Assembly (NCBI GenBank): GCA_025358295.1
Contig: JANYJY010000046.1
Location: forward strand, 1 to 64,000
Length of the DNA stretch: 64,000 nucleotides
DNA from: Gammaproteobacteria bacterium
Lineage (GTDB): Bacteria; Pseudomonadota; Gammaproteobacteria; Steroidobacterales; Steroidobacteraceae
Reading direction: 5' to 3'
Shown: piece by piece, positions 5,876-39,503 of the stretch
How positions within the stretch are numbered: the first letter of the stretch is position 1
Layout: every line of letters starts with the position of its first letter
The notes under the pieces: model-generated
Seen by the model: the letters and a program-made list of their open reading frames with translations, nothing else
The model's database searches: none
What the model was told of the DNA's origin: nothing
Translations under genes and position numbers: made by a program

Positions 5876-6510
5876 ACGCCGCGCGATCAAACCCAGAGAG
5901 TGCCCGCCGCCGGCCGCAACCGCAACCGCAGCCGTGGCGGCGTGTCTGGTTCGCATGGCTGATGGGCGCGGCGATTGCAGCGACGCTGTGGACGACTCCG
6001 CTGCGGGCGGATGGCTTGGAGGGACGATTCGAGGTCCGCTCCGCCGACCTGCAGATCACGGATGGCGTCTATCATCTGAACGCGCATCTAGACTTGCCCA
6101 TCAGCGACGCCGTGCGGCGCGGGCTTGCCGAGGGCGTGCCGTTGACGATGGAACTCGCTCTCGACATCGAGCGGGTGCGCCAGCTGCTGCCGAATTCGCG
6201 TGTCGCCGAACTGACTCAGCGGTATCACTTGCAGTACAACGCCGTCAGCGCCCGCTATATATTGCGCAACGACAATAGTGGCCAGCAAGAATCCCTTAGC
6301 ACCATCGATGCCGCCTTCGACCGGCTCTCCGAAGTGCGCGGCCTGCCTGTGTTGGACAAAGCCCTGCTGACCGCCGACCGCCGCTACGAGGCGAGCGTGC
6401 GGGCAAAGATCGATTACGGGTCGGTGCCGTTCAGCCTGCGGGTCGTGATGTTCTGGGTCAATGACTGGCACCGGGAAAGCGACTGGTACACTTGGACGCT
6501 GCAGCCGTGA
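5872..6510 (+). CDS. DUF4390 family protein
   Basis: A 212-residue protein with a Pro/Gln/Arg-rich N-terminus (a PQ repeat near 15-21), one hydrophobic segment at about 29-43 that could be a signal anchor, and a DUF4390 domain (about 48-212) ending in the WYTW segment common in the family. DUF4390 genes typically sit between rsmB and ntrY, as here, with ATGA overlap upstream and GTGA overlap downstream. It is probably membrane-anchored with a periplasmic domain. The role is unknown; its position suggests a link with the NtrY sensor. Confidence 0.8.
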   Translation: MNAARSNPESARRRPQPQPQPWRRVWFAWLMGAAIAATLWTTPLRADGLEGRFEVRSADLQITDGVYHLNAHLDLPISDAVRRGLAEGVPLTMELALDIERVRQLLPNSRVAELTQRYHLQYNAVSARYILRNDNSGQQESLSTIDAAFDRLSEVRGLPVLDKALLTADRRYEASVRAKIDYGSVPFSLRVVMFWVNDWHRESDWYTWTLQP

Positions 6511-10084: not shown

Positions 10085-10116
10085 GCGGCTAACGAGGCGG
10101 GCGGAGGCCGGCTGGT

Positions 10117-10695
10117 TCAGTCGCCGACGCGGATGACCAGTACATCGACGTCCGCCTTGCGCAGGATTTGCCGCAAGCGATTCAATTCATCCAGCTTGGA
10201 AATCGGTCCTATGCGGATCCGGTGCCAGGTATCGTTGTCCACCGACACTTTCTGAACCTTGGATTCGATTCCCTGCAGCGCCAGTTGGGCGCGCACGCGA
10301 TCTGCATCGGCATAATTTTTGTAAGAACCGGCCTGCAACACATACGTGCCGCGGCGTGTTTCGGGGACGGATTTGGTGTCCGGACGGACATCCTTTTCCT
10401 TCTCCGGCACCACCACTTCGAATTTCGGCAGCATGTCGTAGAAGGAGTAGGACTTCGCCGGCTCTTCCGTGCCGGCATCCCCGGTTTCGGCATCGGGGGG
10501 CTCGTTGCCGTGGGATTTCTTTTTGTCCACCTTGCCGGTTCGGGCGGCGGGCGTATCGGGCCGATGGTCCTTGATGTAGACGATGCCGGCCACGCCGAGG
10601 CCCACCGCCAGTCCGCACACAACGCCCATCCAGCCGGAGAACCCGGAGCTTTTTCCTCGCCGGCTCTTATAGTCGCGTGCTGCAGCCTTGACCAT
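10117..10695 (-). CDS. SPOR-domain inner-membrane protein (FtsN-like)
   Basis: 192 residues: a short basic cytoplasmic N-terminus, one transmembrane helix (about 20-42), a charged Lys/Glu/Pro-rich linker and a C-terminal SPOR domain (about 115-190) starting at TYVLQAGSYKNYADADRVRAQL. SPOR domains bind denuded glycan strands at the division septum. The topology matches FtsN-type division proteins, and a gene of this type after argS is common. It lies 9 bases after argS on the same strand, probably one operon with priA-argS. Confidence 0.85.
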   Translation of the reverse strand: MVKAAARDYKSRRGKSSGFSGWMGVVCGLAVGLGVAGIVYIKDHRPDTPAARTGKVDKKKSHGNEPPDAETGDAGTEEPAKSYSFYDMLPKFEVVVPEKEKDVRPDTKSVPETRRGTYVLQAGSYKNYADADRVRAQLALQGIESKVQKVSVDNDTWHRIRIGPISKLDELNRLRQILRKADVDVLVIRVGD

Positions 10696-10704
10696 GGCTC
10701 TTCT

Positions 10705-12492: not shown

Positions 12493-12542
12493 AGGGTCGG
12501 CAGTTTACCGCTGCGCGCGCCGCTGCGCGCGCCCGAATCCTC

Positions 12543-14747: not shown

Positions 14748-14755
14748 CGGTCCTT

Positions 14756-14778
14756 TTGTCCACAAAACTTGTGGATAA
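14756..14778. promoter_or_regulatory. Pair of inverted DnaA-box-like sequences at the priA start
   Basis: TTGTGGATAA at 14769-14778 is the reverse complement of a perfect DnaA box (TTATCCACA, flanked by A). TTGTCCACAA at 14756-14765 is a one-mismatch box facing it, with 3 bases between. Together they form a near-perfect inverted repeat directly upstream of the priA start at 14747. DnaA could control priA here. The sequence is clear; binding is inferred. Confidence 0.5.
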
Positions 14779-15063
14779 GTCTGTTGAAAAGCCGGGATCA
14801 TCGACCTTAAGTGCCCGTTCCGTTTCAGCTCCCATTCAAATTGGTGAAAAAGTGTCCGAAATCGCTATGAATCTTTACAATTCAATGAGTTACAACGCCC
14901 TCTAGATGCCGCACCGAGGTGTTGATCGAAAATATTGCAATGGATGTCATAGTCGGTGTGCGTAAGTCGCTGATCTTGCGCAAACCCCTGCCGTCAACCG
15001 CGGCGGCGGACAGGCGTTTATACCTGGAATGGCGACGGTTCGTCGACGTTAAGAGGACGAGGC
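14779..15063. other. Divergent intergenic region between priA and the sigma factor
   Basis: About 285 bases with no convincing reading frame or RNA gene. It is AT-richer than the surroundings in its first half (around 14840-14940). A strong purine-rich ribosome-binding stretch (AAGAGGACGAGG) ends just before the sigma factor start at 15064. It must carry promoters for both priA and the sigma operon, but I could not assign -35/-10 boxes with confidence. Confidence 0.5.
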
Positions 15064-15681
15064 ATGCCCCGCTTTGATACGCTCAATGCAGCTTGGATGG
15101 TCTGGGAGGATCCCGCTCCAGCACCTGAGGGAGTGATTCTGGAGTACAGGCGCGAGCTAGACAAATTCTTAGGCGAGATCGAGCGCCGGGCGTTCCGTAT
15201 GGCGCAGGTCGCATTGCGCGATCCCGACGACGCAATGGATGTGGTGCAAGACACCATGCTCAAGCTGGCGCGCAGCTACTCGGCGCGTCCCAGTAGCGAA
15301 TGGCGGCCATTGTTCTATCGGATTTTAGAGAATGGCATTCGCGATCTGCAACGCCGCAGGTCGGTGCGCAAGCGGTTCATGACGTGGCTGCCGGGGGCGA
15401 AAGAAGATCCCGACAACGAAGCGCAGGATCCTTTGGATAATGTCGCCGACTCGGCGCCTGCCATCCCCGAGATCCTGATGCAAGGGCAGGCGATGCAGCA
15501 GCTCGAAGTGTCGCTGCGCGCATTACCGACACGGCAACGGGAAGCGTTCATGCTGCGCAATTTTGAAGGTTTGGATGTGGCCGAAACCGCGACCGCCATG
15601 GGTTGTTCTGAGGGCAGCGTCAAAACACATTACTCGCGTGCGGTGCACACCCTGCGCGAACAACTGGTCGGAGTCTGGTAA
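15064..15681 (+). CDS. ECF-type RNA polymerase sigma factor (sigma-70 family)
   Basis: 205 residues. The sigma2 region (about 35-100) contains DPDDAMDVVQDTMLKLARSY and an RNA polymerase-binding WRPLFYRI segment. The sigma4 region (about 145-200) has LPTRQREAFMLRNFEGL and the helix-turn-helix ETATAMGCSEGSVKTHYSRA. This is an ECF factor that would redirect RNA polymerase under a specific stress. It starts at ATG 15064 after a good ribosome-binding site and overlaps the next gene by one base (TAATG). The following membrane protein probably acts as its anti-sigma factor, by position. Confidence 0.9.
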   Translation: MPRFDTLNAAWMVWEDPAPAPEGVILEYRRELDKFLGEIERRAFRMAQVALRDPDDAMDVVQDTMLKLARSYSARPSSEWRPLFYRILENGIRDLQRRRSVRKRFMTWLPGAKEDPDNEAQDPLDNVADSAPAIPEILMQGQAMQQLEVSLRALPTRQREAFMLRNFEGLDVAETATAMGCSEGSVKTHYSRAVHTLREQLVGVW

Positions 15682-16100
15682 TGAACGAGCAACCGCCAGA
15701 ACATGGCCTGGATACAATCGAGGAGCGCAGCCGCGCGCTGTTTCACGACAGCGTCGAGGGCTTGGATTTTGCACTGCGCTCGCGCCTCACTCAGGCACGC
15801 AACGCCGCTGTCGAGGCCGCCTCTGCGCGGCGCCGTCCTTGGATTTTTCGGATCGGCACATGGACCCCGGCCGCCGGCGTGACCGCCGCCGCGGTCTTGG
15901 GCGTCTTTCTATGGCTGGGTTCGCCATTGGGTCATCACGCCGTTACAGTAGCGGATGGTCAGTCGACTTTCGAAGATCTGGAAATTGTCGCATCCGTGGA
16001 TGAGGCAACGGGCGACGCCATGGACATGCTGCAAGACGATTTCGAATTCTATGATTGGGCAGATAAAGCTGCGGTGTCGGGAGCGGCAACTTCGGGTTGA
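15681..16100 (+). CDS. DUF3619-like membrane protein, possible anti-sigma factor
   Basis: 139 residues: a cytoplasmic N-terminal region with a short alpha-helical LDFALRSRLTQARNAAVEAA segment typical of DUF3619 proteins, one transmembrane helix (about 60-80), and an acidic periplasmic tail containing LDEATGD-like and DFEFYDWAD segments. The start overlaps the sigma factor stop. A one-pass membrane protein right after an ECF sigma gene is the standard anti-sigma position, but no zinc-binding HxxxCxxC motif is present, so this is inferred from context. Confidence 0.65.
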   Translation: MNEQPPEHGLDTIEERSRALFHDSVEGLDFALRSRLTQARNAAVEAASARRRPWIFRIGTWTPAAGVTAAAVLGVFLWLGSPLGHHAVTVADGQSTFEDLEIVASVDEATGDAMDMLQDDFEFYDWADKAAVSGAATSG

Positions 16101-16119
16101 TGTTGGGTCGAGGTGGGGA

Positions 16120-16383
16120 TTGGTTTGGCTGTTGGTCGGGATAACCTTGGGCATCGCCGCCTATGCCGGTCCGCAGCCCGAGGCCTCGCCTCCGCCGAAG
16201 TCGTCCGCGCAAGCACCGGGGCCGGGAACGCCGCGCTCGTCGCAGAGCACGCCCGACGATGAGTTCATCGAGTTCTTGGGTACCGATGATGTGGCGGATG
16301 CAGATTGGTGGGAATTCTTGAAGAAGGTGGCGCCGCGCGGGGATGATCCTCATGCGGCGCCACCCCAGGAAGCAAAGCAATGA
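16120..16383 (+). CDS. Small single-pass membrane or exported protein in the sigma operon
   Basis: 87 residues if translation starts at TTG 16120, which follows a GAGGTGGGG ribosome-binding stretch. The N-terminus is a hydrophobic helix (VWLLVGITLGIAAYAG), followed by a Pro/Ser-rich linker and an acidic segment DDEFIEFLGTDD...DWWEFLKKV. The same acidic and aromatic style appears at the end of the preceding protein. It overlaps the DUF3106 gene by 4 bases. I do not recognise a named family; it belongs to the four-gene sigma module. Confidence 0.6.
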   Translation: MVWLLVGITLGIAAYAGPQPEASPPPKSSAQAPGPGTPRSSQSTPDDEFIEFLGTDDVADADWWEFLKKVAPRGDDPHAAPPQEAKQ

Positions 16384-16874
16384 TTAGGGCGGTGTTGGTC
16401 TGTTTGGGTTTGCTCTTGGCGGCTGCGAGTTCCGTGGCCCAAGTCCCGGCTGCGCCCGCGGCGGAATCTGCTGCGCCCAAGTCTTGGTCGTCCATGACCC
16501 CTCAGCAACAGCAATTGCTGCATGGGTATCATGACAAGTGGGAAAGCCTGACTCCGGAACGACGGCAGGCGCTGGCCACGGGAAGTCAACGTTGGCTATC
16601 CATGTCCCCCGATCAGCGGTCGAGCGCCCAGCAGCGCTTCACGCAATGGCACGCCATGCCCCCTGAAGAACGCCAACAGCTGCGCCAGCGATGGCAGCAG
16701 TTCAAGAGTCTGCCGCCGGAACAGCAACAAAGAGTGCGCGAGTCGTTCAACCGCTTTCGGCAAATGCCTCCGGAACGGCGCACGGAGCTGCGCAAGCAGT
16801 GGCGTCAGCTGTCCCCCGCGCAACGCCGCAACATCATCCAACGAACGCCGCCGGCGCGGCGCGGGCTGCGCTAG
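16380..16874 (+). CDS. DUF3106 family exported protein
   Basis: 164 residues with a signal peptide (about 1-20, cleavage after SVAQ). A highly polar region follows, built of repeats of the form W/F-x-x-(L/M)-(S/T/P)-P-(E/D)-(Q/E)-R, for example SLTPERRQ, SMSPDQRS, AMPPEERQ, SLPPEQQQ and QMPPERRT. This is the DUF3106 pattern, predicted to be helical and periplasmic. It is the last gene of the sigma operon. No biochemical role is established; the repeats resemble those of small periplasmic helical chaperones or sensors such as CpxP-like proteins, by analogy only. Confidence 0.75.
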   Translation: MIRAVLVCLGLLLAAASSVAQVPAAPAAESAAPKSWSSMTPQQQQLLHGYHDKWESLTPERRQALATGSQRWLSMSPDQRSSAQQRFTQWHAMPPEERQQLRQRWQQFKSLPPEQQQRVRESFNRFRQMPPERRTELRKQWRQLSPAQRRNIIQRTPPARRGLR

Positions 16875-16891
16875 CGTCGATCTTCGTCCGT

Positions 16892-19108
16892 CTACGGGTG
16901 ATAACTGCGCTCGGCATGCGCGTCGACGTCCGCGCGGCTGAACAGCACGTCGCGGAAACGTCCTTGCGTGAACATCAATGCCTGATCGGTGAAGTGGGCA
17001 GACTTAGGATCGCCGCTTTCACCGCCGCTCATGATGGCCTTGGCACGAATGGTCGGCCCGAATTCCACCGCGGCGACGAAGCTGTTGCCCACCGAACCAT
17101 ATATTTTTCTCGTCTTGCGCGGGTAAGGCGTATCGAATGACGCCAAGGCGCCCCAGTTTGAAGACGCGAATCCCACCGGCAGGCTCGGCTTGCCATCGTC
17201 GAAGGGCTGCACGATATCGTCGGTCAATCGTTGATAGCGGTTGATGTCGCCCCACGGGGTCTGCCATCGGCCAAAGTCGTGCTGCAGTTTCGCCACCGCC
17301 GCGCTCAAGCCATCGATGCGCTCAGCTGGCGTCAGATGGCCGACCAGGTAGTCATACACCGGTTCATCGGCATCACGCGCCTCGGGGCCCTTGCGTTCGA
17401 GCATTTCCTGTCCCCAAAAAATGGCGAGTGCCGTGGGCACCGAGTCCGCCGCGGTACGTCGGTCCCAGGCGCGCAAGCTGTCGATCGGCTCCTTGAGGCT
17501 CGCGCGCCGCGGATCGTCCGCCGACAACTGATCGTAGTCGTTGAACAGGGGCGGCAAGAGCACGTCGAAGGCGGTCAGATGGGCGTCATAACCGGTGGCG
17601 ATCAAGCTGTCCAAGGTCACATCGTGAATGTCTTTGAGAACTTCCGTGGCGTGAATGCCGCGCGGATTCTCGCCCTTGATCCACATGTAGGCCGGATAGT
17701 TCTCGCGCTTCGGGCTGGCCGCGCCCGCCGCGGAAAACGGCCAATTATTCGTGTTCAAGATCCAGCCATTGCTGGGATTGAGCAAGGTGATGGTGTCGCT
17801 CAGGGCGTGTGGTCCATGCCATTCGGTCTGCAGATTGCTGCCGTCGACGGGATGCGTGAAATCGAATTTCGGATCCCGCTTAGGAATGAAATTGCCGTGG
17901 AAATAGGCAATGGTTCCATCGGCGTCCGCGTAGACCGTATTGTTCGAAGTGTCGGTGCGCATCTCCTGGGTGTTGCGAAAGGAGGCATAGTCCGAGGTCT
18001 TGGTGCGCAAGTACGACTGGGCCAGCGCCGGCACGGGATCCTGAAGCAGTTTGAGCGCAATCCACCGGGTGTCGCCGCCCGCCTTGCTCTCCGCGCGGAT
18101 GATCGGGCCGTGATGGCTGTGATACACGACGAACTGCCGCCGACCGAGGCCTGCTCCCCGTTTGAACGAGATGCTGACTTGGCTCACTTGCAATTTTCGC
18201 AGCGTGCCGCCGTACCTGTAATACAGGCCGTCCGGTTTCTCGACAATGGTCTCGGCATATTCGTCGATGGCGTCTCCGCCGTACGAGGTGTGCATCCAGC
18301 CGTTGCGCGCATTGAAGCCCTGATACACGAAGAACTGACCCCAGGTCACGGCGCCATACACGTTCAAACCCTGCTCGCTTACCATCTGCAATTCGGAGCG
18401 GAAATAGTACGAGGTGTGCGGATTTATCCAGAGCAACGCATGCCCGGACGCACTGCGGCTCGGCGCAATGGCAAATCCATTCGAACCGCCGAGCAGACGG
18501 TCCGCCGAGGCACGGGCCGCCACGGGCTCCCCGGTCGCCGCGGGCGTGTCCAACGCATGTCCCGTACCAGGCGGAGTCTTCCCATAGAATTCTTGAAGCT
18601 TGGCGAGGTCGATGCTCTCGATGTCCCCGCCGATGCTGCCTTCGGTAAAGGACAGTGCCATCCACGGTTCGAATCGACGGATGACCTTGGGCGTCGCCGC
18701 GGGATGTTTCGACAAGTAGTAATTCAACCCGTCCGACCAGGCCAGCATCAGGGTCTTGAGCCAAGCCGGGCTGCTTCGATAGTCCTGCTGCAAACGGCGG
18801 GGGTCGACAAACAGCCTCTGGCGAAGATCGCTATAGACAGCGCTTTCGCCCTCGGCCTGAGCAAGCAGCCCAAGGCCGTTGAGATAATTGCGCTCGACGC
18901 GGCCGAAGTCATCTTCGGCTTGCGCATAAATCGCCCCGAACACGGTGTCGGCATCGGATTTGCCGTAGATATGCGCAATGCCCCAATTGTCGCGCACGAT
19001 GCGGACATGGGCGGCGTGCTCTCGCCAGCGCGCGTTCTGCTCGCCGATGGGCGCAGCAACACCTATCGCGCTCGATGCGATAAGCGCTGCAAAGATCAGG
19101 AATCTCAT
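16892..19108 (-). CDS. Penicillin acylase family protein (Ntn hydrolase, S45)
   Basis: 738 residues with a signal peptide (cleavage near Ala18-Ala19), an alpha-like region, and the autoprocessing site GG|SNGFAIAPSRSASG, where Ser209 becomes the N-terminal nucleophile of the beta chain. Members hydrolyse amide bonds of penicillins, acyl-homoserine lactones, aculeacin or related N-acyl compounds in the periplasm. The N-terminal VRIVRDNWGIAHIYGKS is closest in style to the aculeacin/AHL acylase branch, but substrate cannot be assigned. It is convergent with the sigma operon; the next gene upstream is pntB. Confidence 0.85.
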   Translation of the reverse strand: MRFLIFAALIASSAIGVAAPIGEQNARWREHAAHVRIVRDNWGIAHIYGKSDADTVFGAIYAQAEDDFGRVERNYLNGLGLLAQAEGESAVYSDLRQRLFVDPRRLQQDYRSSPAWLKTLMLAWSDGLNYYLSKHPAATPKVIRRFEPWMALSFTEGSIGGDIESIDLAKLQEFYGKTPPGTGHALDTPAATGEPVAARASADRLLGGSNGFAIAPSRSASGHALLWINPHTSYYFRSELQMVSEQGLNVYGAVTWGQFFVYQGFNARNGWMHTSYGGDAIDEYAETIVEKPDGLYYRYGGTLRKLQVSQVSISFKRGAGLGRRQFVVYHSHHGPIIRAESKAGGDTRWIALKLLQDPVPALAQSYLRTKTSDYASFRNTQEMRTDTSNNTVYADADGTIAYFHGNFIPKRDPKFDFTHPVDGSNLQTEWHGPHALSDTITLLNPSNGWILNTNNWPFSAAGAASPKRENYPAYMWIKGENPRGIHATEVLKDIHDVTLDSLIATGYDAHLTAFDVLLPPLFNDYDQLSADDPRRASLKEPIDSLRAWDRRTAADSVPTALAIFWGQEMLERKGPEARDADEPVYDYLVGHLTPAERIDGLSAAVAKLQHDFGRWQTPWGDINRYQRLTDDIVQPFDDGKPSLPVGFASSNWGALASFDTPYPRKTRKIYGSVGNSFVAAVEFGPTIRAKAIMSGGESGDPKSAHFTDQALMFTQGRFRDVLFSRADVDAHAERSYHP

Positions 19109-30789: not shown

Positions 30790-32415
30790 TTAGGCTTGTT
30801 TCACGCGCCCGCGCCGGAAATCGGCGACGATCTCGCGTGCGGCATTGTGACCGGGCGCGCCGGTTACTCCACCGCCCGGATGCGTGCCGGAGCCGCACAT
30901 GTATAGTCCCTTCAGCGGACCCCGATAGTCGCCATGTCCCAACATCGGACGGGCCGAGAACATTTGATCGAGGCTCAAGGCGCCGTGAAAGATATCCCCG
31001 CCGATCAGACCAAAAGTACGTTCGAGATCCAGCGGACTCATGATCTGTCGTCCGAGCACCGATGCCTTGAAATTCGGCGCATGGGTATTGACGAGGTCGA
31101 TCATCACATCCGCCACTTGTTCGCGGTGATCGTCCCAGGACGCGCCATTGGGCAGTACCGGCGCCACGTGTTGGCAGAACAGGCTGGCCACGTGCAGGCC
31201 AGGAGGAGCCAGGCTGTCGTCCAGAGTCGAAGGAATCAGCATCTCAACGATGGGCTGCTTCGACCAACCACCGGCCTTGGCATCGAGATAGGCCTGCTCC
31301 ATATAGGCAAGACTCGGCGCCATGATGATGCCGGACGTATGATGTTCGGCGAGAGAGCGGCCCGGTAGGACGGTGAAATCAGGCAATTCCGATAGCGCGA
31401 CGTTCATGCGGAACGTGCCTGACCCGCAACGCCAGTGATTGATGCGCTCGCGGAAATCCTGCGGCAGGGCTGCGGGATCAATCAGCGATCCGTACAGCAG
31501 CTTGGGATTCAAATTCGAAACGACGCAGCGCGCGCGAATTGACTCGCCCTTTTTCGTGACCACACCAACCGCGCGGCCGCCTTCCACCAACACCTCGCGC
31601 ACCGGGCTGCTCACACGGATGTCCACGCCGCGCTCGGCTGCGGCCTTCGCCATGGCTTGGCTGATGGCGCCCATGCCGCCGATGGCGTGTCCCCACGCTC
31701 CCTTCTTGCCGTTGACCTCGCCGAATACATGATGCAGCAGCACATACCCGGAACCCGCCGCGTAGGGACTGGCGTAATTGCCGACGATGCCGTCGAAACC
31801 ATAGGCAGCCTTGATGGGTGCGCTCTCGAACCAGGTATCCAAGTAGTCGCCCGCGGATTTGACGAATAGATCGAGGAGTTCCCGGCGCATGGGCAGGTCG
31901 AGTTTCGAGATTCGCTTCCCCAGGCGCGCACTGCGCAACAGTTCGGGCAGCGCTTCCAGCCAGCCACCGGCGGTGACATTCGGCGGAGTCTCGAGCACCA
32001 GGTCGCGCAGTACGTCGGCAACCACGTCGAGGCGTTGGCCGTAGGCGGCAAGGCGAGTCGCATCACGCGCGGAGAATTTCGCGACTTCCTGTTCGGTTTT
32101 GCCTGCGCCGATTTTCAGGTATTGCGTTTCATCCAAGGGTAGAAAGTTGGCCAGGCCTCGCTCGACCACGCGCAGGCCGTGCCGCGGCAAGTCCAGATCG
32201 CGGATGACTTTCGGATTCAACAGCGAAACGGTATATGCCGCCACCGAATTACGAAAGCCCGGGTGAAACTCCTCCGTCACCGCTGCGCCGCCGACTACGC
32301 CGCGCCGTTCGAGCACGGTCACCTTGAGCCCGGCTGCCGCCAGATAAGCCGCGCAGACGAGACCGTTGTGACCGCCGCCGATTATGACGACATCGCGGCC
32401 TTTCGAATCAACCAT
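30790..32415 (-). CDS. Phytoene desaturase-like FAD-dependent oxidoreductase (PYROXD2-like)
   Basis: 541 residues. The dinucleotide-binding motif is VVIIGGGHNGLVCAAYLAAAG followed by the family ERRGVVGGAAVTEEF, with a C-terminal CGSGTHPGGGVTGAPGHNAA FAD segment. The family includes carotenoid desaturases and the PYROXD2 group of unknown substrate. There are no carotenoid genes nearby, so the second group is likelier. The start overlaps the Rieske gene at 32408 by 8 bases, and the four genes further upstream are on the same strand, so it is probably part of an oxidative catabolic pathway. Confidence 0.85.
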   Translation of the reverse strand: MVDSKGRDVVIIGGGHNGLVCAAYLAAAGLKVTVLERRGVVGGAAVTEEFHPGFRNSVAAYTVSLLNPKVIRDLDLPRHGLRVVERGLANFLPLDETQYLKIGAGKTEQEVAKFSARDATRLAAYGQRLDVVADVLRDLVLETPPNVTAGGWLEALPELLRSARLGKRISKLDLPMRRELLDLFVKSAGDYLDTWFESAPIKAAYGFDGIVGNYASPYAAGSGYVLLHHVFGEVNGKKGAWGHAIGGMGAISQAMAKAAAERGVDIRVSSPVREVLVEGGRAVGVVTKKGESIRARCVVSNLNPKLLYGSLIDPAALPQDFRERINHWRCGSGTFRMNVALSELPDFTVLPGRSLAEHHTSGIIMAPSLAYMEQAYLDAKAGGWSKQPIVEMLIPSTLDDSLAPPGLHVASLFCQHVAPVLPNGASWDDHREQVADVMIDLVNTHAPNFKASVLGRQIMSPLDLERTFGLIGGDIFHGALSLDQMFSARPMLGHGDYRGPLKGLYMCGSGTHPGGGVTGAPGHNAAREIVADFRRGRVKQA

Positions 32416-33613
32416 GTTTTTTTCTCATATCATTGCGAACATGCCAGCCGGAACTCGGGGCATGATCGAGCCGGCTTTCGGGAATAAGAGTACGAATGCG
32501 ATGCGCGAAGCTGCGCAGGCTCACTTCGGTTCGGCCGAGCGGCCCCGGTGTATAACTGCGCGATTCCATGCCGGTTTGCACTCGCTCGATGAGCGATTTG
32601 TCTTCGATGCTCACCCTGCGATTGATGCGCCAATTGAGATAGCGTGCCACGCGCATCTCCCGGCGTTCGTCGGGATGTGCATAGGCGATTTCGCGGATCA
32701 GGGTTTCCGTGGGCGAAATCGGGATCATCTGCATGAAATCGATCTGATCCGGATAAATGTCGAAGGCTACATTCGGCCACAATTTGAAGTAGGTCCAGAG
32801 TCTCTGCCGATCATCGGGAAGGTGCGGCGAACGCGGCAGCACGGCTTGATACATGCGCTCGGACAGCTGGGAGGAGGGGATGTCGCGCAGGTTGCCCCAC
32901 ATCTTATCGACCCAGGGCTGGGCATCCACGCCGTAGCTCTGGCCGAATAGACGCGTCAGTCCCGGGTGCGCCACGGTGATGTGCATGGCGTCAGAGTAAT
33001 TGTCCGTCACGTTCTTCCAATTCACTTGTCGCGTCCGCAAGGTGACGCGGCCCATTGACTGCAGTTCTTCGAGGCGATACGTCGCCAACTCGGCATCGTA
33101 CGGCGCCAGCATAGCCGCGACGCTCGGCAAGCCGGGCTTCAAGCGCGCGAAAATAAATCCCTTGTAGATCTCCGTCTCCACCGGTTTGAGCCCGTATTCA
33201 TCGAGACTGAAGTCGACGAATTCCTTGCGGTGCGGAACGGCAGTGAGGCGTCCGTCGAGATCGTAGGTCCAGGCGTGATACGGACACACGATCCGTCCGG
33301 AGCAGTGGCCGGATCCCCCGTCCAAAAGGCGCGCCGCACGGTGACGGCAGACATTGAAGAAAGTCTTGACGCCGAGATCCTGGCCGCGAACGGCGACCAG
33401 GGGTTCACCGAGAAAATCCAGGGTGTGATAATCGCCGGGCCTGGGTATGTCGTTGACGTGGCACACCACCTGCCAGGACGTGGCGAACACCCGTTCCTTT
33501 TCCGCTTCCAGAAAATCTGCATCGTGATAGATCCAGCCGGGGAGGCTGAAACCTTCGAGGTCGGCGGGATTCCGCGCCGATGGATCCGCGCGCAGAGAAC
33601 GCTTTGCTTCCAT
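32408..33613 (-). CDS. Rieske aromatic-ring-hydroxylating oxygenase alpha subunit (first)
   Basis: 401 residues. The N-terminal Rieske domain has the 2Fe-2S ligands CRHRA and CPYHAWTY. The catalytic domain has the iron ligands in DNYSDAMHITVAHPG. The type (single-component alpha chain, about 400 residues) matches oxygenases that demethylate or hydroxylate small substrates such as betaines, carnitine or aromatic acids. No beta subunit or reductase gene lies next to it. It overlaps the FAD oxidoreductase and is preceded by the TetR gene after 93 bases. Confidence 0.85.
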   Translation of the reverse strand: MEAKRSLRADPSARNPADLEGFSLPGWIYHDADFLEAEKERVFATSWQVVCHVNDIPRPGDYHTLDFLGEPLVAVRGQDLGVKTFFNVCRHRAARLLDGGSGHCSGRIVCPYHAWTYDLDGRLTAVPHRKEFVDFSLDEYGLKPVETEIYKGFIFARLKPGLPSVAAMLAPYDAELATYRLEELQSMGRVTLRTRQVNWKNVTDNYSDAMHITVAHPGLTRLFGQSYGVDAQPWVDKMWGNLRDIPSSQLSERMYQAVLPRSPHLPDDRQRLWTYFKLWPNVAFDIYPDQIDFMQMIPISPTETLIREIAYAHPDERREMRVARYLNWRINRRVSIEDKSLIERVQTGMESRSYTPGPLGRTEVSLRSFAHRIRTLIPESRLDHAPSSGWHVRNDMRKKHG

Positions 33614-33706
33614 GATCGGGGCCTTGTCTAATCTTGTTGAACGCTAGAATAACAAGGGCCGCTGTTGGCCACTAGCGGCGTGTGAGCTACGGAACCGTCG
33701 AACGGG

Positions 33707-34396
33707 TCACAGTTTGCGGCGTTTCGACCCGGCTTCGCCCTTTTTTGCCTTAGGTGCCAACACCAGACCGGGAAAGGCACCGCTGCATAGAGCGTTCACC
33801 CAGTCCTCGCAATGCGCGATCGCGTCGCGCGGTTTGAAGACCGTCGGACTCAAACTCAATTCAATCCAGAATCCGTCGAGTAATGCGGAGAGCGATATCG
33901 CGGCATTGCGCAGCTTGAGGGGCGGGGCGGCGCCGGAATCCACGAGCTGACCCAGGAAGGACTCGAGGACCGACCGATATTTGCCGTAGGTGCTGTTGTG
34001 AACAGCGCGAATTTCCGGCGAGTGCGCCACCATGCTCCAGAAAACCAGCCACACATTGAATACCTGGGGATCGAGGATTTCCGGCGCGAACGAAGCGCGG
34101 AAAAAATTGCTCAACCGGTCGCGCGGCGAAATCTCTTTGTTTTCGGCCTGACTGCGGATCGAGTCCTGCAATGCCAGAGCCAACGTCTCGTAGGTTTCGG
34201 CAATGAGTCCCGACTTGCTCGGGAAATGATGATTGATCAATCCGATGGACACGCCGGCCGCGGCGCTAATGCGGCGCACCGATACACCCTCATGGCCAAA
34301 CTGCTTTAGGCATTGCAAGGTCGCGCTCACGAGCGCTTCGCGTCGCACCGCCGGAGTCGCGCGGTGGAATTTCGGTACATGCCGCTTGGTTGCCAT
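33707..34396 (-). CDS. TetR/BetI-like transcriptional regulator
   Basis: 229 residues. The N-terminal helix-turn-helix (about 15-65) includes GVSVRRISAAAGVSIGLINHHFPSKSGL, closely similar in style to BetI, the choline/betaine regulator. The C-terminal ligand domain fits TetR, and a basic Lys/Arg tail ends the protein. A good AAGGAAGAGG ribosome-binding site precedes ATG 34396. It lies between the two Rieske genes, so it is the likely local repressor of this cluster. The ligand is unknown. Confidence 0.85.
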   Translation of the reverse strand: MATKRHVPKFHRATPAVRREALVSATLQCLKQFGHEGVSVRRISAAAGVSIGLINHHFPSKSGLIAETYETLALALQDSIRSQAENKEISPRDRLSNFFRASFAPEILDPQVFNVWLVFWSMVAHSPEIRAVHNSTYGKYRSVLESFLGQLVDSGAAPPLKLRNAAISLSALLDGFWIELSLSPTVFKPRDAIAHCEDWVNALCSGAFPGLVLAPKAKKGEAGSKRRKL

Positions 34397-34434
34397 TTGT
34401 TCCTCTTCCTTGGGATTATAGCGAAGCGCGTCAG

Positions 34435-35583
34435 CTACGACGGCGGGTCATTGACGAACGCTCTGATTCGCTCCACCACGTAGCGTCGAATATCCAGATT
34501 CCAGTCCTCCATCGGCGCATAGAACCCCTGGGTATGGACGCGCGAGCCGATACCGTTCTGCACGCTTTCGCATATGGCCCAATCTTGGCGGTTGACCAAA
34601 TCCCAGAAATCCACGGCATCGGACGGATCGAAGTCCGCCTTTTCCATTTCGTGCGGCTCGAACAGGAAATGACAGGTGATGTCGGTCATTCCGGCTTCCC
34701 GTGGCGTGAGGATAAAAGCCGCCACATGATCGCAGGCCACGCTCAAGAACAGATTCGGATACACCAGCTCGCCCTTGTGCCGAACCTGTTCGTCCGCGTC
34801 GAGACCTGGAAACGCGCGCCGCGCGGTGGTGCCGCTGAGCGTGAATGTGTACGCCCCTTCGCGGTGAGGAATGCCGCGATTCCAATCCAGATTGCCGCCG
34901 CCGGCCTCGCGAAACGAAGGCACGATCGCGCACAGTTCGGGATGGACGCCGGCGCAGTGGTAACACTCGTTGTAATTCTCGCAGATGATTTTCCAATTGG
35001 CCGCGACTACATAGCGAATAGTGGCGCCGATACGCAGGCCCGCTAGGGGATAGCGTTGCAGCCGACCCGGAATCCCCTCCAATTGCGCGGCCAGCGGCTT
35101 GGCTTCGGCCGGGGTTAAATTCAAAAAGACGAATCCTCCCCAACTGTCGGCGCCGACCGGATAGAGATGGAAGTCTTGTTTCCTAAAGCCAGTGTCGGTG
35201 GTCAGGTGCGGTGCGGCAACCAGCGCGCCGTTGAAGTCATATGACCACTGGTGGTATGGGCAGACGATCATCCGTCCGCCGGTGATTCCGCCCGGAAGAG
35301 CCACTCTTAATGCGGCCGTCTCCTCCGGCGTGCGGCACAGGCGCGATCCACGGTGCCGGCAGACGTTGTAGAACGCTCGCAATTGTCCGTCGCGATTGCG
35401 GACCAGCAGAATGCTCTCGCCGAGCACATCCAACACCAAGAAATCTCCCGGATTGGGAATCTCTTCCTCGCGGCACACCGCGATCCATTCTCGGCAGAAT
35501 ATCCGTTCCTTCTCGGTCTTGAATATCTCGGAGCTGCGATACCAGGTGGAGGGCAGGGTGCGTTCCAATTGGGCGGCGTTCAT
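34435..35583 (-). CDS. Rieske oxygenase alpha subunit (second, GbcA/choline-monooxygenase-like)
   Basis: 382 residues. Rieske ligands are CRHRG and CPYHQWSY; the catalytic iron ligands lie in ENYNECYHCAGVHPEL with a later Asp in VNRQDWAICE. The length and ligand spacing resemble glycine-betaine or stachydrine demethylating oxygenases (GbcA/Stc2 type). Start ATG 35583 overlaps the stop of the TMADH-like gene (ATGA), so the two are translationally coupled. No reductase gene is adjacent. Substrate assignment is by family and context only. Confidence 0.85.
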   Translation of the reverse strand: MNAAQLERTLPSTWYRSSEIFKTEKERIFCREWIAVCREEEIPNPGDFLVLDVLGESILLVRNRDGQLRAFYNVCRHRGSRLCRTPEETAALRVALPGGITGGRMIVCPYHQWSYDFNGALVAAPHLTTDTGFRKQDFHLYPVGADSWGGFVFLNLTPAEAKPLAAQLEGIPGRLQRYPLAGLRIGATIRYVVAANWKIICENYNECYHCAGVHPELCAIVPSFREAGGGNLDWNRGIPHREGAYTFTLSGTTARRAFPGLDADEQVRHKGELVYPNLFLSVACDHVAAFILTPREAGMTDITCHFLFEPHEMEKADFDPSDAVDFWDLVNRQDWAICESVQNGIGSRVHTQGFYAPMEDWNLDIRRYVVERIRAFVNDPPS

Positions 35584-37640
35584 ATCGGATAGTCCCGTAT
35601 ATAGGGTGCGACTCCCGGTACTGTATCGAACTCACGGGCGTAGCGATGTCCGCTGTGAACGGCGTGCACGATCGCGCCGGGCGCGAGAGCGTCGCCGATG
35701 CGTGTGACCGAGGCGATGCCGGCCTTGTCGAAATCCGGCGCTCTGGCGATGAGCGACTGGTACAGATCGTCCCGCGGTACCCTGACTCCCACGATGACCA
35801 GCGAACGGCAGGCGATGCGTTTCTCGACGCCGCTGTACACATCGGCGATCGTGGCGGACTCGCCGTCGAAAGCCGTCACGCGCTGCAGAGTGTGAATCGG
35901 CACTTGGGCCTTGGCCAGCGCACGGTGCACCAGGGGCAGCTCATTGGTCATGAAGGTCCAGGCGGACGCGTTTCCCGCCGGCGTTACATAGGTCACGTCG
36001 CCGACCGTCTTGGCCAATTGTTCGGCGATGGCACCGGCCAGATAATAGTTGTCGAAATCGAACACGACCACAGGGGCTTGCGGCACGACGCCGGCAGCGA
36101 GGTCATCCGGTGTATAGACCGCCGGCCCGTCAAGTTCGCCGACGGCAAACTCCAAGGTCGAAAAATTCATTTTCGTCCAACGTGCACCGGTGGCGATCAC
36201 CACATGACGATGTTCGAGTCCCAATATATCGTCGACGCCGAGCGCACTTCCGGGATACAGGCTGACGTTCGGTCTTTCGCGCAATTGTCCCAGGCGCCAA
36301 TCGGCAACGCGGCCCCATGTCTTCAGTCCCGGCAGCGCAGTTTCGAAGCGCAGCCGGCCGCCGAACTCCCCGGCGGAATCTGCGACGGTCACGGCATATC
36401 CGCGCCGCGCGAGCGTGGTGGCGCACTCGAGTCCGGCCGGACCGCCGCCGACGATCAATATAGATGAGTCGCTGGTCGGCGGCGCAAACCGCTCGGGATG
36501 CCAATTACGGCGCCATTCCTCCCCGGCGGTGGGATTTTGTGTGCAACGTACCGGCACGCCATCGTGCCAGCTCGAAATGCAGATATTGCAGCCGATGCAT
36601 TCGCGGATCTCATGCTCTCGGCCTTCGTCGATCTTCTTCGGCAGGAACGGGTCTGCAATCGAGGGCCTGGCGCCGCCGATCAAATCAAGGATGCCGCGGC
36701 GCACTTGTGAAACCATCACGTCCGGGGAAGTGAACCGCCCGACGCCTACCACGGGCCGCTTGGTCAATTGCTTCACGAAATTGACGATGGGCTCGTGGCT
36801 GCCTTCGGATGCGAATCGCGAGGGAGCGCAGTCGGTCGGGCTGGAGTCCATTTTGACGTCCCACAGATCCGGGATATCGGCGAGCAGGGCCACGACCTCG
36901 TGTGCTTCCGAAGCCGCGTTCTGACCCGGTCTGCCGCGCAATTCCTCCAGGCTGATGCGCAGCGCCACGGCGCACTTGTCGCCCACCGCGTCGCGCGTCA
37001 CGGCGAGAAGTTCTCTCACCAGCCGCACCCGATTTTCGATCGATCCGCCGTAGGCATCCGTGCGGTGGTTGTATTCAGGCAGTAGAAACTCATAGGGCAG
37101 GTAGCCCATGCCGGCGTAAACATAAACGATGTCGAATCCAGCCTGCATGGCGCGTCGCGCGCCGGCCGCCTGCCAGCGAAGCAAATCCTGGATATCGTCA
37201 TTGTTCATGGCTCGAGGCCGCTGATTGCCCATGAATCCCAAATGAGTCGACAACCAAGGCATGCCCGACGGCGACAGCGGCGCCATGCGGCTCGTGCGAT
37301 TCAGAGTGCACGCGCCACCGTGCCATAACTCCACTCCCGCCAATGCACCGTGCCGATGGACGGCGTCGGTCATCAGGGCATGGGAACGGATGTCCTTGTC
37401 GTCCCACAACGTGGCAAAGGGCAGCGGAGAATCGTCGGAACTGGGATGAATCGACACTGCGCCGGTGCACACCACGCCCCATCCGCCCTCGGCCTTGGTT
37501 TCGCGAAATGCGGCCCGCACCTGCGGCAGAGAATTGGTCATGCCGCTGGCATGCGGCACCTGATAGAAGCGATTCGGCGCCGTAACGGGTCCGATACGGA
37601 CGGGCTCGAACAAAATATCAAACCGCGGATTGCGCGCCAT
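35580..37640 (-). CDS. TMADH/DgcA-like flavoprotein (NADH:flavin oxidoreductase family)
   Basis: 686 residues, the typical length of trimethylamine dehydrogenase and dimethylglycine dehydrogenase DgcA. There is an N-terminal FMN-binding TIM barrel (ILFEPVRIGPVTAPNRF), a 4Fe-4S motif CIGCNIC followed by a further Cys 12 residues on, and a C-terminal NAD(P)/FAD-like domain beginning SSILIVGGGPAGLECA. Start ATG 37640 is chosen because MARNPRFDILFEP matches the family. With the Rieske gene it could carry out stepwise N-demethylation of a quaternary amine. Confidence 0.85.
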   Translation of the reverse strand: MARNPRFDILFEPVRIGPVTAPNRFYQVPHASGMTNSLPQVRAAFRETKAEGGWGVVCTGAVSIHPSSDDSPLPFATLWDDKDIRSHALMTDAVHRHGALAGVELWHGGACTLNRTSRMAPLSPSGMPWLSTHLGFMGNQRPRAMNNDDIQDLLRWQAAGARRAMQAGFDIVYVYAGMGYLPYEFLLPEYNHRTDAYGGSIENRVRLVRELLAVTRDAVGDKCAVALRISLEELRGRPGQNAASEAHEVVALLADIPDLWDVKMDSSPTDCAPSRFASEGSHEPIVNFVKQLTKRPVVGVGRFTSPDVMVSQVRRGILDLIGGARPSIADPFLPKKIDEGREHEIRECIGCNICISSWHDGVPVRCTQNPTAGEEWRRNWHPERFAPPTSDSSILIVGGGPAGLECATTLARRGYAVTVADSAGEFGGRLRFETALPGLKTWGRVADWRLGQLRERPNVSLYPGSALGVDDILGLEHRHVVIATGARWTKMNFSTLEFAVGELDGPAVYTPDDLAAGVVPQAPVVVFDFDNYYLAGAIAEQLAKTVGDVTYVTPAGNASAWTFMTNELPLVHRALAKAQVPIHTLQRVTAFDGESATIADVYSGVEKRIACRSLVIVGVRVPRDDLYQSLIARAPDFDKAGIASVTRIGDALAPGAIVHAVHSGHRYAREFDTVPGVAPYIRDYPI

Positions 37641-37720
37641 GGCCGATCCCTTGATTGTTGTGGCCAACAAAAGTGACGGCAGAGTAGTTGATCAGTCGTA
37701 CAGTAGCAACTTGGACGCAA

Positions 37721-37769: not shown

Positions 37770-38879
37770 TTAGGCGGCGTGGAATGCCTGAAAATGCAGG
37801 CCCAAGGCGCTGGCTACCGCTTCGTGAGTCAGCTCACCCGCGTGTACATTGAGACCGCGCGCCAGTCCTGGATCGTTGGCGAGGGCTTTGCGCCAGCCGT
37901 GGTCGGCCAGAGCCCGTACGTACGGCAGCGTCGCATTGGTCAGGGCAAACGTAGAGGTGCGCGGCACGGCGCCTGGCATATTGGTGACGCAGTAGTGAAT
38001 CACGCCGTCAACAACGTAGGTGGGTTCGGCATGAGTCGTGGGCCGGCTGGTCTCAAAGCAGCCACCTTGATCGATGGCGATATCGACCAACACCGCGCCC
38101 GGCTTCATGGTTTTCACCATGGCGCGCGTGACGAGCTTCGGCGCCGCTGCGCCGGCAATCAGTACGGCGCCGATGACGAGGTCGGCATCGCGCACCAGTT
38201 CTTCAATGGCATGAGCGGTCGAATAGACGGTCTTCAGTTGACTGCCGAAAATGGATGATAACTCGCGCAGTCTTTTGACCGAGCGGTCCACCACCGTCAC
38301 GTCGGCGCGCAGGCCGACCGCCATTTCCGCAGCGTGCGTGCCGGAAACGCCGCCGCCCAATACCACGACTTTGGCAGGCGCCACGCCGGGCACGCCGCCG
38401 AGCAACACGCCGAAGCCGCCATTGGCTTTTTGCAGGCTGTTGGCGCCCACCTGAACCGACATACGTCCGGCCACTTCGCTCATGGGGGTCAGGAGCGGCA
38501 AGGAGCCGTCGGGAGCGGTTACGGTCTCATAGGCGATCGCGGTTGCGCCCGAGGCCATCAGCGCCTGAGCCTGTTCCCGATCCGCAGCCAGGTGCAGGTA
38601 GGTGAACAAGGTCTGGCCGCTGCGCAATTGTTGGCACTCGGCGATCTGCGGCTCCTTGACCTTCACCACCAGATCCGCGGACGCAAAGACATCCTGGGCG
38701 CGCTGCGCGATGGTGGCGCCAGCCGACTGGTAGTGAGAATCCTCGAAGCCTATGCCGGCGCCGGCGCCGCTTTGCACCAGCACCTGGTGTCCGGAGTCGA
38801 CGAGTTCGCGCACACCCGCGGGTATCAATCCGACACGATATTCGTGAATCTTGATCTCTTTGGGTACGCCGATTTTCAT
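37770..38879 (-). CDS. ald: Alanine dehydrogenase
   Basis: NAD-dependent enzyme that oxidatively deaminates L-alanine to pyruvate and ammonia. 369 residues, the normal family length. MKIGVPKEIKIHEYRVGLIP at the N-terminus, the substrate-site Lys/His region with LFTYLHLAAD, and the Rossmann motif VVVLGGGVSGTHAAEMA are present. It is divergent from an Lrp/AsnC gene with 162 bases between, the classic layout in which that regulator activates ald in response to alanine. Confidence 0.95.
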   Translation of the reverse strand: MKIGVPKEIKIHEYRVGLIPAGVRELVDSGHQVLVQSGAGAGIGFEDSHYQSAGATIAQRAQDVFASADLVVKVKEPQIAECQQLRSGQTLFTYLHLAADREQAQALMASGATAIAYETVTAPDGSLPLLTPMSEVAGRMSVQVGANSLQKANGGFGVLLGGVPGVAPAKVVVLGGGVSGTHAAEMAVGLRADVTVVDRSVKRLRELSSIFGSQLKTVYSTAHAIEELVRDADLVIGAVLIAGAAAPKLVTRAMVKTMKPGAVLVDIAIDQGGCFETSRPTTHAEPTYVVDGVIHYCVTNMPGAVPRTSTFALTNATLPYVRALADHGWRKALANDPGLARGLNVHAGELTHEAVASALGLHFQAFHAA

Positions 38880-38957: not shown

Positions 38958-39041
38958 CATTACAAGCCTGGAAATGGCAGAATAGTGCGGTAACTTTAAA
39001 GTACACGCAAGAAACTGCCGGAATTCGACCAGGATGTGAAT

Positions 39042-39503
39042 ATGACACTAGATCGCTACGATCGCGCCATTGTCCGAGCCTTACAGCTTGACGGCCGCAT
39101 AACCAACAGCCAGTTGGCTGAGAGCGTCAGCCTTTCAGAGTCGGCCTGCCTGCGGCGAGTCCGCGCCCTGGAGGAGTCGGGGTTTATCGAGGGATATACC
39201 GCGCTGATCAATCAGCAAAAGGCGGGTTGCCCGGTGAATGTTTTCGTCAACATCACTCTGGAGCGGCAGGAGCAGGCGCATTTACATGCTTTCGAGGAAG
39301 CTGCGCGCAAGGTGCCCGAAGTCATGGAGTGTTACCTCATGTCCGGCGAATACGACTTCCTATTGCGCGTGGTGCTGGCCGATACGGCCGACTTCGAGCG
39401 TCTGCACAGTCAGCATCTCACGCGCCTGCCGAACGTCGCGCGCGTGCATTCCAGCTTCGCGCTGCGCACGGTGCAGAAATCGCGCGAGCTCCCCGTTCGC
39501 TAG
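39042..39503 (+). CDS. Lrp/AsnC-family transcriptional regulator
   Basis: 153 residues from ATG 39042, with AGGA about 7 bases upstream (GTG 39036 is an alternative). The N-terminal helix-turn-helix is DRAIVRALQLDGRITNSQLAESVSLSESACLRRVRALEESGFI. The C-terminal RAM ligand-binding domain has VPEVMECYLMSGEYDFLLRVV. It is divergent from ald and so is the probable alanine- or leucine-responsive regulator of that gene. It ends overlapping by 4 bases the stop of the convergent acetyl-CoA hydrolase gene. Confidence 0.9.
   Translation: MTLDRYDRAIVRALQLDGRITNSQLAESVSLSESACLRRVRALEESGFIEGYTALINQQKAGCPVNVFVNITLERQEQAHLHAFEEAARKVPEVMECYLMSGEYDFLLRVVLADTADFERLHSQHLTRLPNVARVHSSFALRTVQKSRELPVR

Follow-up and report, generated by a model that had tools for sequence, protein, structure and literature searches.

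The nearest described counterparts of the genes discussed here, a five-gene cassette in a stretch of 64,000 nucleotides from a gammaproteobacterium of the Steroidobacteraceae (GCA_025358295.1, contig JANYJY010000046.1, positions 1 to 64,000; below, the window), belong mostly to the breakdown of methylated amines. In Pseudomonas, the demethylase DgcAB is part of the glycine betaine route. Trimethylamine dehydrogenase (TMADH) carries its 6-S-cysteinyl FMN on Cys30 and has His172 in its active site. The carnitine monooxygenase CntA has a glutamate bridge, E205, and a cysteine pair, Cys206-X-X-Cys209; such a pair is called "unique to some Group V" members, Group V being the quaternary-ammonium oxygenases (excerpt of PMC10952381). 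Proteins of the PF06253 family are described as glycine betaine demethylases, with GbcAB as the Rieske alternative (excerpt of PMC12478193).

The host assembly comprises 4.02 Mb in 74 contigs, and the window lies on contig C72 (C, L and G numbers are our handles for host contigs, loci and genomes). The host presumably lives in soil or peat. At the level of titles and abstracts, the open-licence literature gave no published description of the cassette. We argue below that it is a union of two modules that elsewhere occur apart, and that, under BetI-like control, it probably removes the N-methyl groups of a quaternary amine oxidatively and step by step.

Two modules joined in one genus

The cassette consists of the following genes.

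30790-32415, minus strand: FAD enzyme ("PyrD", P0001), phytoene-desaturase/amine-oxidase-like, 541 aa, Pfam Amino_oxidase and DAO
32408-33613, minus strand: Rieske oxygenase A2 (P0002), 401 aa, Pfam Rieske and Ring_hydroxyl_A, motif NYSDAMHI
33707-34396, minus strand: TetR/BetI-type regulator (P0003), 229 aa, TetR_N and TetR_C_6 (BetI type)
34435-35583, minus strand: Rieske oxygenase B1 (P0004), 382 aa, Pfam Rieske and Ring_hydroxyl_A, signature NYNECYHC
35580-37640, minus strand: TMADH/histamine-dehydrogenase-like flavoprotein (P0005), 686 aa, Oxidored_FMN and Pyr_redox_2

These genes form two separable modules, one made of flavoprotein and Rieske B1 and the other of Rieske A2, FAD enzyme and TetR, and in one genus the two are joined beside an alanine dehydrogenase gene. 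The initial annotation, made from the window alone, had seen five genes on one strand, with the flavoprotein gene coupled by ATGA to one Rieske gene and the FAD enzyme gene coupled to the other. This reading holds: all five are on the minus strand, ATGA is the overlap of the flavoprotein and Rieske B1 genes as read directly in the sequence, and the Rieske A2 gene shares 8 bases, ATGGTTGA, with that of the FAD enzyme. The comparison of genome neighbourhoods that it proposed gives a more divided answer. The order flavoprotein-Rieske B1-TetR-FAD enzyme was found in eight fetched loci, six of them with Rieske A2 as well, and since this order recurs the five-gene arrangement is not a matter of chance; but the cassette is made of two modules that are often apart. 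A single ancient five-gene pathway is ruled out by the occurrence of the modules apart in other loci.

Among the 23 genomes of the genus, the order is alanine dehydrogenase-[flavoprotein-(Rieske B1)]-(TetR)-(Rieske A2)-FAD enzyme. The bracketed genes are present in some members and absent from others, and hence the cassette is a mosaic. Two genomes (G007, G009) have only alanine dehydrogenase and the FAD enzyme at that place, with gaps of about 30 and about 75 bp between matched ends, while G020 has TetR and Rieske A2 there and no module 1. In five loci (L144, L146, L153, L154, L156), both Rieske genes are missing while flavoprotein, TetR and FAD enzyme are present. Alanine dehydrogenase is kept beside cassette genes within the genus, and one locus of another genus (L167) has it with TetR and the FAD enzyme. 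In the window the neighbours on this side are as follows.

37770-38879, minus strand: alanine dehydrogenase, co-directional with the cassette and upstream of it, 539.5 bits against a cut-off of 391.85
39036-39503, plus strand: Lrp/AsnC regulator, divergent from the alanine dehydrogenase gene (domain search)

Curated models place the five proteins only loosely. The C-terminal domain of the regulator, TetR_C_6, is of BetI type, as had been proposed; the looser BetI model NF001978 is just reached (121.1 of 118 bits) and the choline-responsive repressor model TIGR03384 is not (120 of 201.3 bits). For both Rieske proteins, the flavoprotein and the FAD enzyme, every NCBIfam model listed scores below its cut-off. 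The labels "PYROXD2-like" and "DgcA-like", used earlier, could not be confirmed, there being no PYROXD2 or DgcA model among the library matches.

By its Rieske [2Fe-2S] and catalytic domains, its glutamate bridge and its Cys-X-X-Cys pair, Rieske B1 is assigned from sequence to the Group V Rieske oxygenases. Every one of the 56 rows with 50% identity or more, the window's among them, keeps Glu, Cys, His and Cys of the NYNECYHC signature, and 27 more distant rows have the Glu in 26 cases and the second Cys in 22. Against solved structures, three matches are about equal at 144-153 bits: 3n0q at the top, CntA, and 3vca, which we take to be Stc2. The GbcA equivalog NF058607, with a cut-off of 670 bits, is reached neither by Rieske B1 (207) nor by Rieske A2 (152).

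A scan of genome contigs with Rieske B1 gave 78 loci. A flavoprotein of the same kind is encoded in 48 of the 56 loci with at least 53% identity (L060 has a divergent form) and lies within 300 bp of Rieske B1 in 45 of the 56; among the eight without it, L059 has a fragment (81%) at a contig end. Hosts of the pair include gammaproteobacterial metagenome-assembled genomes (MAGs), some of them Steroidobacteraceae, the marine gammaproteobacteria HTCC2148, SAR92 and Porticoccaceae, and one MAG each of Caulobacteraceae and Emcibacteraceae. An MFS transporter of one of two families is present in 36 of 48 such loci against 2 of 40 control loci, a comparison with the same bias as the peptidase count given below. 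Plasmids of Ensifer, Rhizobium and Fuscovulum carry orthologues at 64-70%, the one in Ensifer adjoined by an ETF-alpha gene.

The partner of the flavoprotein may change. Two loci have an MttB-type gene beside the flavoprotein gene and no Rieske B1 found in the stretch read. The order in Fuscovulum is flavoprotein, MttB-type gene, S15 peptidase and peptide-type ABC transporter. G165, from the window's own family (L174/L213), has an MttB-like gene adjoining the flavoprotein gene (by tblastn, 41% to its Fuscovulum counterpart). Further along comes a PF06253 gene, with MFS, TetR and S15 genes between; Rieske B1 was not found in these two stretches, the remainder of G165 not having been searched for it. 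Rhizobium RCAM05350 has the flavoprotein with MFS and S15 genes, the same transporter type and a frame-broken Rieske B1. Since PF06253 proteins are described as glycine betaine demethylases, an MttB-type gene in the place of Rieske B1 favours a quaternary amine as the substrate. The oxidative N-demethylation of such an amine, as first proposed, thus gains support for the flavoprotein and Rieske B1 from the Group V signature, the MttB-type swap and the ETF-alpha neighbour, but not as one fixed five-gene pathway, because the modules occur apart.

The closest solved structures to the flavoprotein are histamine dehydrogenase (642 bits), the Oxidored_FMN protein 6l6j (640) and TMADH (about 500); its best curated model is a mycofactocin OYE, at 339 bits against a cut-off of 793. 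The 4Fe-4S cysteines and the C-terminal nucleotide-binding domains of TMADH type are present. Residues of TMADH were numbered by counting on an alignment of the flavoprotein with the solved structure, and 48 rows of at least 60% identity were compared. The Cys30 column has Ala in 46 rows, the region being missing in the other two; the His172 column has Met in all 48, the Trp264 column has Ser in 47, and the Tyr60 column is variable (Ala 30, Tyr 16, other 2). Tyr169, Asp267, Trp355 and the four Fe-S cysteines are conserved throughout the 48. Cys and His are both kept in three of five more distant rows; L060 combines Ala with His, and in the fifth row (27%) the two residues are missing. As judged from this alignment, the family is a distinct subfamily of the TMADH/histamine dehydrogenase kind, and its FMN is presumably bound non-covalently. 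On S. meliloti pSymB the best flavoprotein match is 29% identical; the record is without usable annotation and the stachydrine (stc) genes were not located in it.

Turning to the second module, Rieske A2 reads NYSDAMHI. In all 8 rows that are at least 50% identical to it the bridging residue is Asp and the Cys pair is missing; five more distant rows have a Glu bridge but again no Cys pair, so that the Group V mark is on B1 only. The nearest solved structure is CntA (143 bits). For the FAD enzyme, the best curated model is CrtO. Of the family's 217 genomes, 153 have a match to the FAD enzyme at E <= 1e-120, although some of these matches are paralogues of about 40-47% identity; at 50% identity or more it is present in 123 of the 217 by a hand count of the listing. 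Rieske A2 (63-69% identity) is beside it in 14 of 40 neighbourhoods from other genera of the family, and in Sphingobium TomTYG65 Rieske A2 (57%) is immediately upstream of the FAD enzyme (61%). Nine neighbourhoods of plasmid homologues, among the matches listed, are more diverse: several lack a gene for a Rieske alpha subunit and carry genes of the aminotransferase, GABA-aldehyde dehydrogenase or acetylpolyamine kind. Hence the FAD enzyme family is not generally tied to Rieske proteins.

In a tree of 64 FAD enzyme rows (50 chosen loci and the window, matches of more than 380 residues only), the P0001 clade (29 rows, support 100/100) is separate from clade A (12 rows) and from clade B (13 rows, long branches). 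Members of A and B are paired, together with aminomethyltransferase and Rieske genes, in alphaproteobacteria, acidobacteria and host contig C12. By this tree, the FAD enzyme of the window represents a third type, not accompanied by an aminomethyltransferase. The combination with a phytoene-desaturase-like enzyme had been called unfamiliar; given these homologues beside Rieske and aminomethyltransferase genes in other bacteria and in the host itself it is not unique, but the separate clade does set the window's enzyme apart. In one locus with FAD enzymes (L089, 5864-7375), a domain scan found an IclR helix-turn-helix and a GcvT-like protein in one frame, beside the FAD enzymes and divergent from a Rieske gene; homologues of 503-506 aa are present in other acidobacterial loci.

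An operator shared by both modules

Two candidate sites were located in the window by motif comparison.

37681-37709, minus strand: conserved promoter/operator TTGCTACTGTACGACTGATCAACTACTCT, upstream of the flavoprotein gene
33634-33655, minus strand: weak candidate second operator TTGTTATTCTAGCGTTCAACAA, upstream of the Rieske A2 gene

The block TTGCTACTnTACGATCGATCAATTACTCT is common to the flavoprotein upstream regions of eight loci of the genus, including the window. Its core pattern has one match in the 64-kb window against 0.01 expected, and hexamers resembling -35 and -10 elements, 17 nt apart as read by eye, flank the site at 37681-37709. In all loci scanned, 24 places (duplicates of the same genomes included) have at most 4 mismatches to the operator pattern, and every one is upstream of a flavoprotein gene or, in L167, of TetR. 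The second candidate in the window has 8 mismatches to the long pattern, a score that 3% of random stretches equal.

Sites upstream of Rieske A2 and of the flavoproteins of other genera lead to a palindrome, TTGAACGATCGTTCAA. Allowing at most 3 mismatches, it has 41 sites in 2.60 Mb of loci (duplicated loci L001-L025 and L107-L126, and also L203-L212, omitted; L174 and L213 overlap). We define a start zone as -260 to +40 of the start of one of the five genes; such zones make up 3.7% of the bases and contain 29 of the sites, 19 before flavoproteins (10 in this genus), 8 before Rieske A2, Shinella and Rhizobium SL42 among them, and 2 before TetR. Two hundred shuffled palindromes with the same half-site letters gave a mean of 0.17 such sites and a maximum of 4. 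The palindrome is absent from a good number of the upstream regions tested. Of the sites outside the zones, one is about 90 bp before the class III aminotransferase gene of the Shinella cluster. The same type of operator before both modules where they are apart suggests that one type of BetI-like repressor would control both. The regulator is predicted to bind this operator, and the sharing argues that control of the two modules is linked.

Substrate, mechanism and competing explanations

From the gene anatomy, the signatures, the conservation of the modules and the sharing of the operator, all of which are observed, we infer the reactions, their order and a substrate. A BetI-type TetR repressor would act through the shared palindromic operator on two modules of oxidative N-demethylation. 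Rieske B1, with a reductase encoded elsewhere, would hydroxylate one methyl group of a trimethylammonium substrate, yielding formaldehyde and a tertiary amine. The flavoprotein would then dehydrogenate this tertiary (perhaps also the secondary) amine and pass the electrons to ETF. Rieske A2 and the FAD enzyme may complete the removal of the last methyl group or groups, or act in parallel. The freed amino acid would enter general catabolism, by way of alanine dehydrogenase if it is alanine.

Partners for such a scheme can be found in the host. Contigs C20 (362 aa, domains in FAD-NAD-Fer2 order) and C36 encode candidate reductases with Fer2, FAD and NAD domains, the genome having three PF00175 places, and ETF pairs are on C14 and C42. 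There are 17 Rieske and 12 GCV_T matches, one of each standing close together on C47 and again on C62, and two DAO-GcvT fusions (Pfam). A trimethylamine N-oxide permease scores over its cut-off. The host looks like a methylated-amine specialist, and this stock of genes makes N-demethylation in general more likely. Two further host loci may be mentioned. On C14 (L138, 2145-10815), an ETF pair, a trimethylamine N-oxide permease, a haem-dependent oxidative N-demethylase-like protein, GCV_T and an aminobutyraldehyde dehydrogenase are together. On C12 (36000-55900, L133), positions 4696-17422 hold a second cluster of the kind with two FAD enzymes, along with aldehyde dehydrogenase, Rieske, class III aminotransferase, aminomethyltransferase and an ABC ATPase with a TOBE domain. 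Its frame at 4696-6342 (548 aa) joins a BetI-type TetR C-terminal domain to a Rieske domain, without the TetR N-terminal or the catalytic Rieske-partner domain, and may be a fusion or a frame artefact.

What might the substrate be? The host genome was scanned with TTGNACGATCGNTCAA at up to 2 mismatches. The 22 places found correspond to 11 matches in the forward and 13 in the reverse direction; the reversed control pattern had 4 and 2. The only place without a mismatch, C35:30613-30628, ends 30 bp before the presumed ATG of the following gene, whose start is uncertain: the ATG was taken from a protein alignment, and an earlier in-frame GTG would put the operator inside the frame.

L214 1546-2727 (host contig C35): trimethyllysine dioxygenase-family gene, TIGR02410 at 309.9 bits against a cut-off of 268.3

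Its nearest solved structures are TmpA and then gamma-butyrobetaine dioxygenase. Two neighbourhoods lead to the same family. In an Arenicella MAG (L075, 3976-10665), a TIGR02410 gene (275 of 268.3 bits) stands in a row with an operator and a divergent TetR on one side and flavoprotein and Rieske B1 on the other; the row also holds a cytochrome P450. In L178, a TIGR02410 gene (308 bits) and an amino acid permease gene are transcribed away from the FAD enzyme gene, and the space between the two units has an operator-like site (the permease start is uncertain). With the operator and these two neighbourhoods all leading to trimethyllysine-dioxygenase-family genes, N6-trimethyllysine becomes the leading candidate, one that we put forward tentatively. 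Homarine catabolism was also considered and set aside, no homarine operon being described in the titles and abstract openings of the open-licence papers listed.

A more specific proposal can be built on this candidate. The cassette might be part of a regulon for eating N6-methylated lysines freed from proteins, in which the BetI-type repressor would sense the methylated amino acid, Rieske B1 and the new TMADH subfamily would take trimethyl- to monomethyl-lysine, and the FAD enzyme would finish the process. Taken as a whole this is speculative, and we regard it as unlikely to be right in every part.

Several observations weigh against our interpretation. The cassette holds no reductase and no C1 gene. 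Eight members of the genus have flavoprotein and FAD enzyme without Rieske B1. The FAD enzyme is widespread and in deeper branches mostly without Rieske neighbours; Rieske A2 is beside it in none of 19 deeper-branch neighbourhoods (L182-L200). As to the operator, 12 of the 41 palindrome sites are not upstream of cassette genes, and the 29 that are must be read knowing that the consensus was learned from regions later scanned, that the loci are related and that 10 of the 29 come from one genus. The copy in the window departs from the 16-nt palindrome at 5 positions, and the host scan at 2 mismatches does not recover it. Only three of the 22 host places are tied to a plausible gene; of the 21 apart from C35, 19 are unexplained, one has a TetR-like gene close by and another precedes a TonB-receptor-like frame. 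Among 234 other loci, many of them overlapping, no more than 8 have a match to the trimethyllysine dioxygenase family or a related dioxygenase; by score two of the 8 are of TIGR02410 type, and most module loci have no such gene. Two loci (L036, L040) instead carry TmpA-like genes (361 and 348 of 400 bits), pointing to a phosphonate analogue route, 4-5 kb from the flavoprotein-Rieske pair. With TmpA-like genes there and the dioxygenase in few loci, trimethylammonium compounds in general are the firmer statement.

A few observations accompany these points. The 2-mismatch site before the TonB-dependent-receptor-like frame is just upstream of it, on C12:102038 (L222). In L182-L200, several family members with small genomes keep the FAD enzyme; its neighbours there are LexA-like, glycosyltransferase and conserved unknown genes, and Rieske A2 is not among them. 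L036 also has an MFS transporter close to the flavoprotein-Rieske pair, in the stretch at about 1-4.8 kb of the locus.

The same stepwise N-demethylation could be directed at another substrate, such as glycine betaine, N-methylated alanine, proline betaine or a dipeptide- or ester-bound trimethylammonium compound. We consider this possible, if on the unlikely side. Even where other cassette genes are missing (G007, G009), alanine dehydrogenase is directly by the FAD enzyme, and it could finish a route from N-methylated alanine to pyruvate; but the linkage is seen only in genus g1 and one g3 genome, and it may therefore be inherited gene order. Peptidase or amidohydrolase families (S15, S33-like, Xaa-Pro dipeptidase-like, M20, M28, Amidohydro_3) are found in 28 of 48 Rieske B1 loci against 2 of 40 control loci; this count is biased, since the query proteins were taken from the positive set and the controls from one family, and the 48 exclude eight four- or five-gene loci. 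The TmpA-like genes fit here too, as does a TmpB-like HD protein gene at a similar distance from the pair in L040 (the only locus tested for it). The TmpA/TmpB route ends in glycine betaine. For glycine betaine itself, however, the host encodes elsewhere a GbcA-like protein with 498 of the 670 bits, against 207 for Rieske B1, and this is the better candidate.

Another possibility is that two unrelated operons became neighbours by chance in the genus and that the FAD enzyme and Rieske A2 belong to some other pathway, for example a lipid, carotenoid-like or steroid-related one. The wide spread of the FAD enzyme clade beside unrelated genes such as LexA in deeper branches would suit this, and so would the Asp bridge and missing Cys pair of Rieske A2. 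Sphingobium homologues add to it: on plasmids of strains named Tom and of S. herbicidovorans (L129, L130, L211), P0001 orthologues (61-62%) are beside bile-acid:sodium symporter and enoyl-CoA hydratase genes. Yet the same operator type is on both modules in lineages that have them apart, and in L178 an operator-like site separates the FAD enzyme gene from a divergently transcribed operon with a gene of the trimethyllysine dioxygenase family. We think such an accident improbable.

A role of the two Rieske proteins in hydroxylating aromatic rings, as part of a xenobiotic pathway, is very improbable: the Pfam Ring_hydroxyl_A domains, the annotation of many plasmid homologues as "aromatic ring-hydroxylating dioxygenase" and the deposition of 3n0q as a putative aromatic-ring hydroxylating dioxygenase speak for it, but Rieske B1 has the Group V signature and scores nearly as well against CntA and 3vca, no beta subunit, ring-cleavage or dihydrodiol dehydrogenase gene is among the annotated or Pfam-scanned neighbours, and homologues fixed to aromatic-ring pathways, which the initial annotation had named as a sign against its proposal, were not seen in the neighbourhoods read.

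Comparison with known systems

If N-demethylation of a quaternary amine is the function, the locus would offer a concrete regulon (operator, repressor and enzymes) for this process in marine and soil bacteria whose record consists mainly of metagenome assemblies. It also defines a flavoprotein subfamily without the covalent-flavin cysteine and active-site histidine of TMADH, and may provide a bacterial test bed for phytoene-desaturase-like FAD enzymes. The FAD enzyme is presumably kin to human PYROXD2. Variants of the human gene give a leading signal for N6-methyl- and dimethyllysine; associations with trimethyllysine and N-methylpipecolate are described too (excerpts of PMC8109053 and PMC9730628), as are associations with trimethylamine and dimethylamine (excerpt of PMC3169529). 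If the methyl-lysine regulon and this kinship are both correct, the orphan PYROXD2 would be an N-methyl-lysine (or N-methyl amine) oxidase.

Among described systems, the carotenoid desaturases and ketolases CrtI/CrtO share the FAD enzyme superfamily with P0001, but P0001 is below the curated cut-offs (263 of 1000 bits for CrtO, 120 of 238), and no carotenoid gene was recognised nearby. The clusters with two FAD enzymes, an aminomethyltransferase and a Rieske gene in Fuscovulum, Shinella, Rhizobium SL42, Parasedimentitalea and host contig C12 have homologous FAD enzymes, Rieske A2-like proteins and TetR, with operator-like sites in Shinella and Rhizobium; the window differs in having a single FAD enzyme, of a separate clade, and no aminomethyltransferase.

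CntA and the stachydrine demethylase Stc2 share the Group V signature with Rieske B1. The similarity is moderate, about 145 bits to CntA and 3vca, and no carnitine or proline betaine genes were recognised adjacent to the cassette. With TMADH and histamine dehydrogenase, the flavoprotein shares full-length similarity, the Fe-S cysteines and equivalents of Tyr169, Asp267 and Trp355, but it lacks the cysteine for covalent FMN and has Met for His172 and Ser for Trp264. The glycine betaine catabolism of Pseudomonas, with GbcAB and then DgcAB, has the same succession of a Group V Rieske oxygenase and a TMADH-family demethylase. The window departs from it in the low GbcA score of Rieske B1, in a flavoprotein without equivalents of Cys30 and His172, and in a cassette without its own reductase.

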